DNA from: Kiritimatiellota bacterium
GTDB lineage: Bacteria; Verrucomicrobiota; Lentisphaeria; Oligosphaerales; JAADHN01
Direction: 5' to 3'
Assembly: GCA_013151865.1 (NCBI GenBank)
Contig: JAADHN010000018.1
Coordinates: forward strand, 1 to 32,256
Length of the DNA: 32,256 nt
Below, piece by piece: positions 1,595 through 27,338 of the stretch. The notes below the pieces were generated by a model. It saw only the letters and a list, made by a program, of their open reading frames with translations. It did no database searches and had not been told where the DNA came from. Both the position numbers and the translations under genes were made by a program. How positions within the stretch are numbered: position 1 is the stretch's first letter; each line of letters begins with the position of its first letter.

Positions 1595-3358
1595 TCACGG
1601 ACGGCGCCCCGACTTCGGTTCGGAAATGTTCGTGCGGCCGGGGCTGAGGCGGGGGACGTTCCCGAAACGGCGCAGTGTCGGCGCCTCGAACGAGCCCACC
1701 AACAGGATGGCTCCAACACCGAGCCGAGCGCAGCAGATTCGGACCTGCTCGGTGGACATTACCATGAAAGCCGTTGAAAGCGCGTCGGCCCGGGTTGCGG
1801 AATCCGCAAACGCCCAGGCGGCCAGGGCGCCGGTCGCGGGTCGGCCGGTATGCGGGTCGATGATGTGCGGTCCATGCACTACGGCGGCCGAGCCGCTCAT
1901 TGCCCCGTGCTCGAGTTCGAGGCTGCCCAGGGCGCCTTCGGAACGACGGGGGTCGCGCAACCGGAGAGGCCAGCGCTTTGCATCTCCGGGGGCGGAAGCG
2001 CGGCGCAACACGAGCGCGGTGCTCAGGCCGCCTTCGATCAGAGCGTCGTCGATTTTCCAATCCCGGAGGACGTCGGCCATTCGGTCGAGCGCGAATCCTT
2101 TGCCGATACCCCCCAGGTCCACGCGCAGTCCGGGACGGCGTACGGCGACCTCGTGGGTCGCAAAATCGACGTCCAGGTACTGCATTCCAATTGCGGCGGC
2201 GCCGCCGCCGGGTGCACCGACCGATCTTGCCGTAACGTCGAATGCCCCGCCGGTGTCTTTCCAGGCGGCGAAAGCGGCCCGCAGACAGGCCGCGGCAGTT
2301 TCGCCGATGCGCAGTCGGTCCCCGACTTCGAGGGCGTTGATTCGAGAGACGTCGCTGGTGGGGATAAACCGGCTCAGTTCCTGCTCGATCCGGTCGAGTT
2401 CGTCAAAGGCCGCACGGGCGGCCTGCCGGGCGTACCCGTCGTCCACAGGGGCGCGAATCAAGATGGCGAAATCCGTGGCCATGGCGGCATGCCGGTATGG
2501 CCGGATCGGGGGGGTCGGAGGCGGCTCCGGATCCTTCGCCGGAACAGCCGGCGTCCGGACTGCGGTACGCGCACGCGCATGTGTGTCCAGCCATGTCTGC
2601 CACAGTCCCGACCGAATCAGCAGCAGGAGGGGCACGGCCGGCCGCAGCCCGTAATACTGCTGTTCATATCGGGCCGGACCCAGCTTGTCTCTGATGTTCT
2701 TCGCAAAGCGCGGCGCGGTGACGATGATCGGCGCACGAACGGACGGTGGCGGGGCGGTCCAATAGCCGACCCGTGCCAGGCGTCGGAAATACCAGGGCAA
2801 CGGCCAGTACTCCGGTGCAATCACGAACACGGGGGTGGCGGTGCCGGTCGGGGCCAAGGCCGTGACTTCTTCGACCCGTTTTGCCAGGCGTACGAGGTCC
2901 GGCGACGTCTGGGCGTATACCCATGGGTTCCGGCGGTCCGTGCAGAAACGTCCTGCCGCGGCCCGTGCCTGGCGGCCCAAATCGACGACGGCCAAGATGA
3001 AACAGATTGCGAAGACCGCACGCAACATCGGGCGTCGCAGGCGTTGCCAAGCGGCCTCGACCCCCAGGCCCGCCACGCAAATCGCGGCAAACCAGGGCCC
3101 GAGAACACACCAGGGCGTTTTGTAAGGGACGGCGCTGTAGAGTGCGAACAGCCCCACTGTATAGAGCACCAATATCCGGAGTCCCATACGGCGGCGGGGA
3201 TTCTCACTGCAGGATTTGCTGAAAAAGGCGGCCCAAGCCCCGACGAGCCAGAATACGAGGATGATGCCTTCGTTCCAAGTCGGCCCCGGCCGGAACGGAT
3301 TGCCGAACAGGCGGGCGAAGTAGAAATACCAGGGGTGCCAGTGCGTGCAATGTCGCAC
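1595..3358 (-). CDS. apbE: C-terminal half of Agl23-like membrane protein fused in frame to ApbE FAD:protein FMN transferase
   Basis: This frame begins as the continuation of the frameshifted Agl23-like gene (HWHPWYFYF motif, then several hydrophobic segments) and runs without a stop through a Pro-rich linker into an ApbE domain of about 295 residues. ApbE attaches FMN from FAD to a Thr/Ser of FMN_bind proteins outside the cytoplasmic membrane. Family motifs visible are AMATDF (for the usual AMGT), VDLGGIGKGFALD, EGGLSTAL, HIIDPHTGRPA and ADALSTAFMVM, the last carrying the Mg-binding Asp and Thr. GTG 3358 is the first start codon after the frameshift, but the real start is probably that of the upstream half at 4124. 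ATG 2482 could restart the ApbE domain alone, but no ribosome binding site stands before it. A fusion of these two families is unusual. Confidence 0.85.
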   Translation of the reverse strand: MRHCTHWHPWYFYFARLFGNPFRPGPTWNEGIILVFWLVGAWAAFFSKSCSENPRRRMGLRILVLYTVGLFALYSAVPYKTPWCVLGPWFAAICVAGLGVEAAWQRLRRPMLRAVFAICFILAVVDLGRQARAAAGRFCTDRRNPWVYAQTSPDLVRLAKRVEEVTALAPTGTATPVFVIAPEYWPLPWYFRRLARVGYWTAPPPSVRAPIIVTAPRFAKNIRDKLGPARYEQQYYGLRPAVPLLLLIRSGLWQTWLDTHARARTAVRTPAVPAKDPEPPPTPPIRPYRHAAMATDFAILIRAPVDDGYARQAARAAFDELDRIEQELSRFIPTSDVSRINALEVGDRLRIGETAAACLRAAFAAWKDTGGAFDVTARSVGAPGGGAAAIGMQYLDVDFATHEVAVRRPGLRVDLGGIGKGFALDRMADVLRDWKIDDALIEGGLSTALVLRRASAPGDAKRWPLRLRDPRRSEGALGSLELEHGAMSGSAAVVHGPHIIDPHTGRPATGALAAWAFADSATRADALSTAFMVMSTEQVRICCARLGVGAILLVGSFEAPTLRRFGNVPRLSPGRTNISEPKSGRRP

Positions 3359-4124
3359 TCGAACGCGATGTGTAATGCGGGAACGCCCGGAAACTGTCCG
3401 CGATTCCGCGCGGGTTGACGAAAAAGTCCGAGAACAGCACGGCGGCGACAAGGCCGGCGGCCAAGGCGGCTGCGCCCAGACGGCCAGGATGCAGAAACTC
3501 CGGTGCGCTCGTCCGAGGTTCGCGCCGCCATCGCCCCCAGAGCCGGGTCCCGATAAAAGCCAGAACGAGCGCAACGGCCTCGAACACCCAGGTTTCTTTC
3601 GTCGCGCAGAGCAGGCCGAAAGACACGCCGACGGCCATGGCCCAGGCCATACGTGGACTTCGCCAGTATCGCTCGAATGCCAACAGGAACGCCCCGGTGA
3701 AGAATACGAACAGCGTTTCGTGAATGTAGTACCGACTGTAAAACACGAACACCGGGGAACAGGCCAGGAGAAACGCAGCGGCCAGGGCGGCCCGCACCCC
3801 GAGCAAACCGGCAAACCCGGCGGCGAGCAGAATCAGGCCGAGGCCGAAGACGACAGGCGTCATGCGCAGCTCGGTCTCTGTGGCGTCGGCCAATCGTCGC
3901 ACGCCCGCCATCCGGAGCCCCAGGGCCCCCAAGAGAGGGAGCGTGGGGCCGTGGTACTCTGCGGGGTCATAAATGTATCGGCCGGTCTCCAGCAAAACGC
4001 CGGTCTTCGCGGCTTGAACGGCTTCGTCCGTGTGCATGGGGCGGCGATCGAGACGCGGAAATCGCAGGACCGCTCCCACGAGAACGGCCGCCGCCAGCAA
4101 CAGAAAGCCAAGCCGTTTTCTCAT
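3204..4124 (-). pseudogene. N-terminal half of Agl23 (TIGR03663)-like GT-C membrane glycosyltransferase, frameshifted
   Basis: Starts with a signal-anchor (MRKRLGFLLLAAAVLVGAVL) followed by RPMHTDEAV, the Asp-Glu loop typical of the GT39/GT-C-like Agl23 family. Further hydrophobic segments follow, including FYSRYYIHETLFVFFTGAFL and an ATKETWV motif. Such proteins are polytopic and thought to use lipid-linked sugars; the substrate is unknown. Similarity stops at about FRAFPHYTSRS: the expected continuation HxHPWYFY appears one frame over (1595-3358). The remaining residues to 3204 are out of frame. The shift, one extra base or two missing, lies between about 3345 and 3375. It could be a sequencing error, a real inactivating mutation or programmed frameshifting. 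The start is coupled to the upstream gene through a 4-nt ATGA overlap (4121-4124). Confidence 0.8.
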
Positions 4125-4807
4125 TCGGCCGGTTTCCCGTAAACCTCCACCTCGATGTAATGGTTCGCGTCGTCCGCAATACTGCCGTGACTGTAAAGGC
4201 GCACGTACCGAGCCACGACGCCCTTGGCGTCCACCAACCTGCCCTCGTACGTCTCGAAGTATTCATGGTCCTTGCCGATGCCGAGTCCGGCGGAATTGTC
4301 GTGGTCGTTGTTGAACAGGGTCCGAACATTGGTGATGAAGTCCGGGTCATCCGCGACTTGAACAATGACGTCATGGTACACACGGGGGTCGGCATGGTAA
4401 TGCCAGACCACGACGGCGTAGATCCGGCTTTTCTTCTGGAGGTCGATCTGGACCCATTGCACGCCGGGGCCGAGTTCCACGTAGCTGCCGTCGGCGGCCT
4501 CCTTATCGCCGTCCGTAATCAGGGACAATTCGCCGATGATCGGCTCCTCGTCACTGCTGCTGACCGGTTTTCCCAAAGCGAGGTTGGTGGTCCCGGCCGG
4601 GGCCGGGAACGGCGGTCGCGGTTTGCCGCTGGGTTTCTCGACCGTGGTACCCGGCGGAATGTTCTTCGGCGTGCCCACGAAGACCGGACGCGGCAATTTG
4701 ATGGGGAGCGGAGTCAGGTCCTTGTCGCTCTTGCCGGCCGCCTGCAACGGTGCAACAGACAGAGCGATGCCCAGAGCCGTCACGATGGAAACCAGTCGGG
4801 TCTTCAT
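4121..4807 (-). CDS. Secreted discoidin (F5/8 type C)-like domain protein
   Basis: A 228-residue exported protein. Residues 1-24 form a signal peptide ending near PLQAAG. A Pro-rich spacer follows to about residue 75, then a single galactose-binding-like beta-sandwich starting at TNLALGKPVSSSDEEP. Its core includes LITDGDKEAADGSYVELGPG, WVQIDL, DVIVQVADDPDF and ARYVRLYS, and it ends IEVEVYG, which fits an F5/8C fold. Two ATGs are possible; 4807 is preferred because AAGGA lies 9 nt upstream, whereas it abuts the ATG at 4816. The stop overlaps the start of the Agl23-like gene (ATGA), so the two are probably translationally coupled. It has no catalytic motif. A role in binding glycan or another envelope protein is inference. 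Confidence 0.85.
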   Translation of the reverse strand: MKTRLVSIVTALGIALSVAPLQAAGKSDKDLTPLPIKLPRPVFVGTPKNIPPGTTVEKPSGKPRPPFPAPAGTTNLALGKPVSSSDEEPIIGELSLITDGDKEAADGSYVELGPGVQWVQIDLQKKSRIYAVVVWHYHADPRVYHDVIVQVADDPDFITNVRTLFNNDHDNSAGLGIGKDHEYFETYEGRLVDAKGVVARYVRLYSHGSIADDANHYIEVEVYGKPAE

Positions 4808-4832
4808 GTTTTTCATTCCTTTCGCGTGGTTC

Positions 4833-5027
4833 TCATTTGGGGTTGCCGTCGGTCCTGAACAGTGTATGAGCCGCCTTCTGCTCCGATGACGCATCTCGCA
4901 CGCCTTCAAAATATTGCCGCAACTCGCCCACCGACCGACCGAGGCGGTGCTTCAACACGACTTCGTCCAGTGTTCGACGCAACGACTTGAATCCGTGTAA
5001 GCTGCGCCATCTCGCGTCGAAGTCCAT
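4833..5027 (-). CDS. Small unknown ORF between cytochrome b and discoidin-like genes
   Basis: A 64-residue frame starting 12 nt after the cytochrome b stop and ending 25 nt before the discoidin-like start, so it fills an otherwise empty slot in the run. The product is charged and probably helical, with no signal peptide or membrane segment (for example LRRTLDEVVLKHRLGRSVGELRQ). No Shine-Dalgarno sequence is evident before the ATG. I do not recognise it. It may be a real small protein or a chance open frame; position and length are the only support. Confidence 0.4.
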   Translation of the reverse strand: MDFDARWRSLHGFKSLRRTLDEVVLKHRLGRSVGELRQYFEGVRDASSEQKAAHTLFRTDGNPK

Positions 5028-5039
5028 GAATGAAACAGA

Positions 5040-5783
5040 TTAGCCGTCGCCATTCTCGCTTGCATTTCCGTCGCCGATTTCTTCGGGAGCGGATTGCTCT
5101 GCCGGATCGAGTCCAAGGCGCTCCGCCCAAACGGGGTGATGGCGCCGGACCCAGGCCGGCCCCACACTCCCGAGGAGCATGGCTCGAATGGTTCCCGGGT
5201 TTGCCAGCGTGCCGAGGTAGACATGAACGATAGCACCCATTGTCAGGAACAAGGCTGCATAACGGTGCGCGGTCAGCGCCGCCGCCTGCCCCGGGGCCCC
5301 GAATACGGGCGCCATGCGGACCAGTCCGGACAGAACGGTCACCGCTCCGAGAAGGGCGACAATCCAGAAAAACGCCTTCTGCCCGGCATTGAACATGCCG
5401 GCCGGCAGGTCGTCCGCTCCGCCGAGGTATCCCCCCAGGCGCCGGACCCACGCCATGTCGTGCCGTTCGAAGCGCCCGAATTCGGGCCATGTCAAAGTCA
5501 GGGCGGCCAGGCCGACGGCGAAGAGGGGGGCCGTCGTCCAGTGTACGAGCAACAGCCATCCTTCCAAGGGACGCCCGCGCAACGCGGCGGTCAATCCGGT
5601 CGTCGCCATCACGAGGAAACTGAGGAGCGTCGCGGCGTGGATCAGACGCTCCCACAGATTGAAGCGGCGGACCCCGGGTTTTTCCTTGCGCAGTCCAGGA
5701 TGCTTCGGTCCATAGACCAGAAGGTGTCCCGCAACTCCAACGGCGGCGCTCAAGACCCCGATCACGACGATCAAACGGTACAC
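5040..5783 (-). CDS. FdhI-like cytochrome b (formate dehydrogenase gamma-type) membrane subunit
   Basis: A 247-residue integral membrane protein with about five hydrophobic segments (residues 3-25, 48-69, 75-98, 134-156 and 170-193). The NAGQKAFFW motif before the fourth segment and the spacing of His49, His81, His173 and His187 are typical of the b-type cytochromes that pass electrons between quinones and periplasmic or extracytoplasmic redox proteins. The start codon is GTG, with GGAG about 11 nt upstream. The C-terminal 30 residues are acidic and soluble. No dehydrogenase or iron-sulfur partner is in the window, so the redox partner is unknown. The ApbE domain downstream and the FMN_bind protein at 26457 make a flavin-linked partner plausible (inference). 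Confidence 0.85.
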   Translation of the reverse strand: MYRLIVVIGVLSAAVGVAGHLLVYGPKHPGLRKEKPGVRRFNLWERLIHAATLLSFLVMATTGLTAALRGRPLEGWLLLVHWTTAPLFAVGLAALTLTWPEFGRFERHDMAWVRRLGGYLGGADDLPAGMFNAGQKAFFWIVALLGAVTVLSGLVRMAPVFGAPGQAAALTAHRYAALFLTMGAIVHVYLGTLANPGTIRAMLLGSVGPAWVRRHHPVWAERLGLDPAEQSAPEEIGDGNASENGDG

Positions 5784-26456: not shown

Positions 26457-27104
26457 TCAGAGGGAGATCGCGGTCACGGGTGCGAGCGCCAGACCATTGC
26501 GCCGGACGGCCGCGTCTTCGATCTTCACTCCATGCAGAAGCGCGCCCAGGTCGTCCAGCGTTTCACTTACTGTTCGTGTGACCGCCTCGCATGTGATCGT
26601 GGCGCCCGTTATGGCGAGCATGGGGCGGTCCTTCTGTCGGAGGCGTTGGCCGAGGAGGGCGCGCAACCGCATCCGAATGACCTTGATGTAAGTGGGGGTC
26701 TCCGGGCTGTCGATGAACACGATCCGACTGACCCGCCCGCGCCGGGTCAGCACGATCCCGAGGTCCGACACGCCGTTGTAACCTTTGTGGCGGGCGTATT
26801 CACCGGTGATCACCAGGAGTCGGCGCCCGGACAGCAGGGCGAAATGACGGCCGGCGATCTCATAGAGTCGGGCGTGTTTTTCGCCGATCAATTCCAGGGC
26901 CCGCCGGTATCGCGCCACCACACCGAGAGAAGACGCGGGCCCGGCGGCGGCGCCCGCGACTGTTGCGGTTGTCTCCGCCTTGGCGGTCGCTGCCGCCAGG
27001 AGGCACCCCAGTGCCAGAGCGGTCAAGCGCCTGTGTCGGGTGCGATGGGATGTGGACGGCCCAACGGGTGGTTTGCCGCCGGCTCCCGATGAGGATCGGC
27101 CCAC
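26457..27104 (-). CDS. Exported FMN-binding (FMN_bind) domain protein
   Basis: The C-terminal 130 residues match the FMN_bind fold: GHKGY-like HKGYNGVSDLGIVLTRRG, IVFIDSPETPTYIKV, and the flavinylation motif ITGATIT. ApbE attaches FMN through a phosphoester bond to the last Thr of [S/D]GAT-x-T; here that is the codon at 26592-26594. The first motif position is Thr instead of Ser/Asp, so attachment efficiency is uncertain. A signal-like segment RRLTALALGCLLAAATAKA precedes the domain. The start is ambiguous: the frame opens at GTG 27335, a few bases after the upstream stop; GTG 27104 is preferred here because it gives a shorter N-region before the signal. The Arg-rich stretch before it has no family resemblance. 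An ApbE domain is encoded at 1595-2482. Confidence 0.78.
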   Translation of the reverse strand: MGRSSSGAGGKPPVGPSTSHRTRHRRLTALALGCLLAAATAKAETTATVAGAAAGPASSLGVVARYRRALELIGEKHARLYEIAGRHFALLSGRRLLVITGEYARHKGYNGVSDLGIVLTRRGRVSRIVFIDSPETPTYIKVIRMRLRALLGQRLRQKDRPMLAITGATITCEAVTRTVSETLDDLGALLHGVKIEDAAVRRNGLALAPVTAISL

Positions 27105-27338
27105 GTGTCGTCCGCATCCGACAACGCGGATGCGGCTCGGCACGGGCGCCGCCCCCGCTGCGCGCGTGCTCCGGTCGAGGTTGGCGCGATCCCGCAGATC
27201 GAAAGGGATGCGGCCCGCATACGTAAACGGCATTGCGCCGCCCGGCAGGCGCATATTCGTTCTCGGCTGTTTTCGGAAAGGCGAATTCATGTTGGAAAAG
27301 TCCGACGGCTGTGGTGTCACGTCTTTCCTGAACACAGG

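Follow-up and report, generated by a model that had tools for sequence, protein, structure and literature searches.

Genes and reading frames at the locus

The DNA analysed here, hereafter the window, is the whole 32,256-nucleotide stretch of contig JAADHN010000018.1 (positions 1-32,256) in GCA_013151865.1, a single assembly of 176 contigs from a Kiritimatiellota bacterium. Its minus strand carries a run of tightly spaced genes encoding an ABC exporter (9121-7106) and an HlyD-like protein (7109-5853) that form the upstream part of the chain, a partner membrane protein resembling cytochrome b561 and formate dehydrogenase gamma (5040-5783; PF01292, E 9e-16), an exported discoidin-like (F5/8 type C) protein with a signal peptide (4121-4909; PF22633, E 4e-6), an Agl23-like GT-C protein, an ApbE (FAD:protein FMN transferase) and RNase HIII. 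The stop codon of the discoidin-like gene and the start codon of Agl23 overlap as ATGA. The Agl23-like protein is divided between two minus-strand frames. Its N-terminal half (frame A, 3204-4124) starts at ATG 4124, is recognised by TIGR03663 (model positions 5-261, E 9e-33) and PMT_2 (E 2e-12), and retains the HxDE (HTDEA) and HGP (YHGP) motifs; homology stops at about 3363, beyond which the frame runs on as an out-of-frame tail to the TGA at 3206-3204. The C-terminal half (frame B, 2561-3343), comprising the last transmembrane (TM) helices and the soluble domain, accounts for positions 271-432 of TIGR03663 (E 2e-11), with the motifs YKTPWC, NPWVYAQT and WPLPWYFRR aligning to homologues. This second frame (3814-1595, 739 aa) is already open ahead of HWHPWYFYF (at about 3342), ends with the TGA at 1597-1595, and passes through a Pro-rich linker, VRTPAVPAKDPEPPPTPPIR (2501-2560, minus strand, no start codon), into an ApbE domain (1595-2500, minus strand) that matches nearly all of PF02424 (positions 1-263 of 266; E 6e-38; 131 bits against a cut-off of 25.6). 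The original prediction of a frame uninterrupted by any stop from HWHPWYFYF to the ApbE end, joining an Agl23-like GT-C protein to an ApbE across a Pro-rich linker, was borne out. The span that it gave for the fusion, 1595-4124, is not one open reading frame—it had missed a +1 frameshift inside Agl23, as well as the cross-phylum adjacency and recurrent fusion described below.

Alignment with about 19 relatives from the same order and class, in which Agl23 is unbroken at this position, together with frame arithmetic, places one extra base (or two missing bases) between approximately 3365 and 3341 on the minus strand, and it is this shift that parts the two halves. Taken singly, they score 113.9 and 43.4 bits against an NCBIfam cut-off of 126.25 bits for TIGR03663, and two intact homologues (loci L193 and L151) score 196 and 170. 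The frameshift sits in a 20-nt palindrome, AGTGCG-ACATTGCA-CGCACT (3339-3358, minus strand), a possible hot spot for mutation or sequencing error. Programmed frameshifting at 3341-3365 was considered and rejected, given that neither a stop codon nor a slippery site occurs there and that the orthologues are unbroken. A full-length product can be expected from this assembly only if the shift reflects an error in the sequence or can be bypassed. As for a separately translated ApbE, no ATG, GTG or TTG lies in frame between GTG 2635 and ATG 2482; the latter encodes the Met of HxAM, a core motif that does not vary within this ApbE subfamily, and no Shine-Dalgarno-like sequence precedes the codon. 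An independent start at 2482 is therefore unlikely from the sequence, and nothing that we found supports it; the original prediction, which had seen no convincing internal ribosome binding site and had named this codon as the alternative, stands on this point too.

These features bear directly on whether the gene is decaying in the window—a case in which a recent +1 frameshift killed Agl23 and the ApbE start was lost, leaving a functionless fusion here while the pair works elsewhere. The frameshift site contains no homopolymer, so that short-read errors are less expected there, the sole ApbE start codon lies inside the core, and a second ApbE encoded in the genome could cover flavinylation. 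However, every Agl23 and ApbE motif outside the break is kept, no further stop or frameshift occurs across 2.5 kb, and both Agl23 halves and ApbE share the codon usage of the intact neighbours (GC3 of 0.75-0.76)—profiles that give no signal of decay, yet lack the power to rule out that the gene became a pseudogene recently. Decay of this copy is possible, if somewhat doubtful; the data fit a functional, a decayed and a mis-sequenced copy alike.

Conservation of the gene pair and its recurrent fusion

When 84,980 species genomes were queried with the fused sequence and its Agl23 relatives, 80 loci emerged, 71 of which have a separate ApbE gene directly after Agl23—counts from a biased sample rather than frequencies, as the query held both parts. 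The other loci comprise three single frames of 842-846 aa, three with ApbE nearby and three in which no ApbE was found. Their hosts are mainly Planctomycetota, with further members in Verrucomicrobiota, Lentisphaerota, Kiritimatiellota, Acidobacteriota, Nitrospirota, Bacteroidota, Ignavibacteriota, KSB1, Neomarinimicrobiota and Aminicenantes. The association of Agl23 with ApbE is well supported, and the pairing is not accidental. A homologue of the discoidin-like protein is encoded immediately upstream of Agl23 in 68 of 81 loci (window counted). The proteins of this kind at loci L140-L219 are 49-64% identical to that of the window—a strong conservation across phyla—and the structure model (pLDDT 72) depicts a mostly beta protein; we know of no function assigned to it.

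Redox genes recur around the pair. In about 34 loci, genes for cytochrome b, a heptahaem cytochrome c or both lie upstream, and the cytochrome b561-like protein of the window belongs to the cytochrome b group found ahead of the discoidin-Agl23-ApbE genes in other phyla. A Tat-type Gfo/Idh protein, nearest to glycoside 3-dehydrogenases, is often encoded upstream as well, and there is often a convergent GT2 gene, whose product resembles polyprenyl-phosphate sugar synthases; the full neighbour set, including a 3-keto-disaccharide hydrolase homologue, occurs in two of the fused-clade genomes examined. The window genome holds the same parts at two sites, namely cytochrome b, discoidin-like and Agl23/ApbE here, and heptahaem cytochrome c plus Gfo/Idh on contig C94. 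On that contig (L256), the heptahaem cytochrome c gene adjoins the one for the Tat-type Gfo/Idh protein, and the products are 44-52% identical to the cluster proteins. Local variants were also observed. An NCS1/Transp_cyt_pur-like membrane protein is encoded before the discoidin gene at L193 (2666-4087) and at about 19 similar loci, mostly planctomycete. Loci L160, L164, L171, L173, L177 and L194 (Verrucomicrobiota and Acidobacteriota) encode a small membrane protein that has no Pfam match and appears DoxX-like by eye, and some of these cluster versions carry two discoidin genes.

The window's own order and class present a different picture. The approximately 19 Agl23 relatives found there (about 430-665 aa in length, with some truncated at contig ends) finish, where the end is present, soon after LRPxxLLxLxIRxDLWxxWL, and no ApbE follows them in the DNA examined. 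No second fusion appeared among the matches listed for 198 genomes of the class, and a plasmid tblastn search gave nothing but ordinary ApbEs among the matches listed. The discoidin-Agl23 pair is common to five of these order and class relatives. The closest ApbE within the order (genome G022) carries no signal peptide, and its gene is preceded by those for a small cytochrome b and a multihaem cytochrome; this arrangement suggested that the discoidin-Agl23 genes had been inserted into an ancestral cytochrome b-ApbE pair, an idea that we rejected because the order cytochrome b-discoidin-Agl23-ApbE is the usual one in other phyla. Within the window's phylum, loci L120, L125, L126, L128, L131, L132, L136 and L137 encode a leaderless ApbE behind a seven-haem cytochrome c.

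The two-domain architecture, for which the original prediction had proposed a search in related genomes, recurs elsewhere. Among 148 relatives of the Planctomycetota MAG L151 (itself counted), 108 match the fused protein and 13 carry an unbroken fusion over nearly its whole length. Because the same two genes are fused unbroken in 13 genomes other than that of the window, the fusion as an architecture cannot be put down to chance. The 13 linkers have kept their frame across proteins that are now 41-70% identical to L151, and the main fused clade also conserves part of the linker sequence, PDKKxIxNLxKFSH. On the ApbE tree, the fused state requires six changes (gains or losses), at least four of them by well-supported branches, with the window as one separate case. 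The window locus may accordingly be read as one case among several in which a conserved gene pair was fused independently, a view that shares the roughly even credence we give to the explanation as a whole. Such recurrence is strong evidence for joint action of the two enzymes. Stop-codon read-through in separate pairs that share a frame was also considered and dropped, as the other two frames are equally common and chance suffices.

The same comparisons weigh on the idea that the fusion is an artefact, either an assembly chimera or an indel making two genes seem one. The linker contains a run of seven C (minus strand, 2508-2514), its sole obvious indel-prone site, one indel already lies 0.8 kb away, and the sequence comes from a single assembly of 176 contigs. 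Against this, the order cytochrome b-discoidin-Agl23-ApbE matches that of unrelated genomes, which makes a chimera unneeded; the same fusion recurs in other assemblies; and neither alternative frame of the linker offers a good ApbE start. We consider an artefact quite improbable.

Predicted architecture, flavin transfer and membrane side

Structure prediction was carried out on the intact homologous fusion L151 (34 aligned sequences) rather than on the window domain. The model (mean pLDDT 91, pTM 0.67) contains one disordered linker, at residues 519-528. Its ApbE domain aligns with solved ApbEs at Z scores of about 33-35, and residues 1-508 align with ArnT, STT3/OST and AglB at about 29-31, soluble domain included, as befits a GT-C fold; the mutual placement of the two domains in the model is not firm at this pTM. 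Membrane sides were deduced from helix order, hydropathy and charge. The 11 TM helices, the N-terminus placed inside and the positively charged inner loops together put the C-terminus, and therefore the ApbE domain, on the predicted extracytoplasmic side—the orientation on which the original prediction had sought information.

The ApbE domain of the window retains the catalytic Ser, His and Asp, within MSGS, HIIDP and ADALST, respectively (catalytic residues taken from PMC12052999). In an alignment to the E. coli and T. maritima structures, this triad and DLGGxxKG are invariant in 12 subfamily members, the window included. An export signal or lipobox is usual but not universal in ApbE, and was not used to exclude membership. 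No convincing signal peptide or lipobox was found in the 74 separate ApbE homologues, whose N-termini are short and hydrophilic; a weakly hydrophobic stretch occurs in one and a chance lipobox-like string in another. The original prediction had held that an ApbE encoded separately, with its own signal peptide, would speak against it; ApbE is indeed a separate gene in most homologues and fused in a minority, but the signal peptide is lacking. Judging from these N-termini, the separate leaderless ApbEs should remain cytoplasmic, in the compartment that contains FAD, and cytosolic ApbEs are known (PMC12052999).

The leaderless state invites the view that ApbE is a separate cytoplasmic enzyme in all these genomes, translated from a start codon of its own or from an internal one, with fused frames reflecting a lost stop between overlapping genes. 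Cytosolic precedents lend this view some substance, as does an ATG that several fused species have in frame close to where ApbE begins. Linkers kept in frame in 13 genomes across long divergence point the other way, as does the lack of a suitable ATG in the window and in some fused species, and we judge it rather unlikely. The leaderless separate form and the outward-facing fused form could be reconciled by partner-borne export, by two forms acting on different sides or by a wrong topology prediction.

ApbE attaches FMN at D-x-x-[ST]-G-A-[ST] (PMC12052999, PMC8238504), which offers a handle on the substrate. We rejected the discoidin-like protein, heptahaem cytochrome c, cytochrome b, Gfo/Idh protein, permease-like neighbour and Agl23 as carriers of an [ST]GA[ST] target, the motif being conserved in none of them. 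Agl23 deserves separate mention, since known ApbE fusions join the enzyme to its target (trypanosomatid fumarate reductase and DUF2271 proteins; PMC12052999, PMC8238504) and Agl23 might likewise be the FMN acceptor. Yet [ST]GA[ST] occurs in only 3 of 75 Agl23 proteins, at unrelated places, and D-x-x-[ST]-G-x-[ST] in 0 of 75, so that we regard this as very improbable. Among the Pfam-tested neighbours, no FMN_bind, DUF2271 or DUF3570 gene lies within five genes of ApbE; FMN_bind proteins are present somewhere in all ten genomes tested. The window encodes one such protein, a possible ApbE substrate (26457-27335, minus strand; PF04205, 31 bits, above cut-off), in which ITGATIT and an N-terminal hydrophobic segment mark the canonical type of ApbE target. 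Its gene lies 24 kb from ApbE, an association by content only, and the second ApbE of this genome, which is TM-anchored, could serve it.

A proposed envelope function and comparison with known systems

Our best reading, to which we assign about an even chance, is that the fusion constitutes an FMN transferase that is tethered to the membrane, associated with the transfer of lipid-linked sugars and in the service of an envelope redox chain. The GT-C part would use a polyprenyl-phosphate-linked sugar, probably the product of the neighbouring GT2 found in many relatives, while the flexible linker would hold the ApbE domain extracytoplasmically beside the GT-C soluble domain. From there, ApbE might move FMN from FAD onto a Ser or Thr of an envelope redox protein that would partner the cytochrome b, heptahaem cytochrome c and glycoside-dehydrogenase-like chain encoded with the pair. 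Fusion would guarantee equal amounts and co-location of the two enzymes and replace the lipid anchor of ordinary ApbEs. Here we infer both chemical activities, the substrate and the connection with sugar oxidation. In favour stand the computed evidence of adjacency (71/80), the 13 fusions and their distribution on the tree, the folds of the L151 model, the predicted topology, the invariant Ser/His/Asp and the redox neighbours. Counting against it are the leaderless separate ApbEs, expected on the side of the membrane opposite to that predicted for the fusion; the lack of a conserved [ST]GA[ST] in neighbours or Agl23; the frameshift in the window copy; and the Agl23 homologues of its own order and class that no ApbE follows. 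More tentatively, we envisage a multi-phylum envelope system in which GT2, Agl23, ApbE and the discoidin-like partner would be coupled to a cytochrome b/heptahaem cytochrome c chain draining electrons from periplasmic glycoside 3-oxidation, with an ApbE target that has no [ST]GA[ST] and an ApbE brought outside by partner tether or co-transport instead of a signal peptide.

Both protein families are known. In line with the original prediction, we found no description of their constant pairing or repeated fusion in the open-licence papers searched, and a term search of PMC8238504 did not find this cluster type. Their recurrent fusion suggests that lipid-linked sugars and covalent flavin share a role in electron transfer at the envelope, and the conserved cluster supplies concrete, testable substrate candidates for the ApbE subfamily.

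Compared with the ApbEs (PF02424) of E. coli and V. cholerae, Listeria FmnB and Treponema Ftp, the subfamily described here is alike in fold, FAD binding and the catalytic Ser/His/Asp pattern. It differs in having no signal peptide or lipid anchor, in an SG-to-HxIDP hairpin about eight residues shorter, and in its genetic setting, in which ApbE follows a GT-C gene or is fused to it and no FMN_bind gene adjoins. Haloarchaeal Agl23 (TIGR03663), a putative Dol-P-hexose flippase or GT-C protein, has been studied with Agl22, a glycosyltransferase of the same pathway (PMC11182771). It shares with our locus the family, the DE and HGP motifs, the GT-C fold and a GT2 polyprenyl-phosphate-sugar-synthase-like gene often nearby; the proteins reported here are instead bacterial, preceded by a discoidin-like gene and followed by or fused to ApbE, with no N-glycosylation locus seen. 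In the ApbE-substrate fusions of trypanosomatid fumarate reductase and DUF2271-ApbE (PMC12052999, PMC8238504), ApbE is likewise one domain of a larger protein, whereas the partner here is a glycosyltransferase-like membrane protein devoid of a flavinylation motif. Finally, in the survey of extracytosolic flavinylation by Meheust et al. (2021; PMC8238504), a cluster was retained only if an ApbE, FMN_bind, DUF2271 or DUF3570 protein in it bore a signal peptide or a lipidation site; because clusters without one were left out, leaderless ApbEs could be missed, and surveys that rely on signal peptides can overlook a widespread subfamily. The clusters described in that survey resemble those reported here in setting ApbE alongside membrane and other electron carriers.
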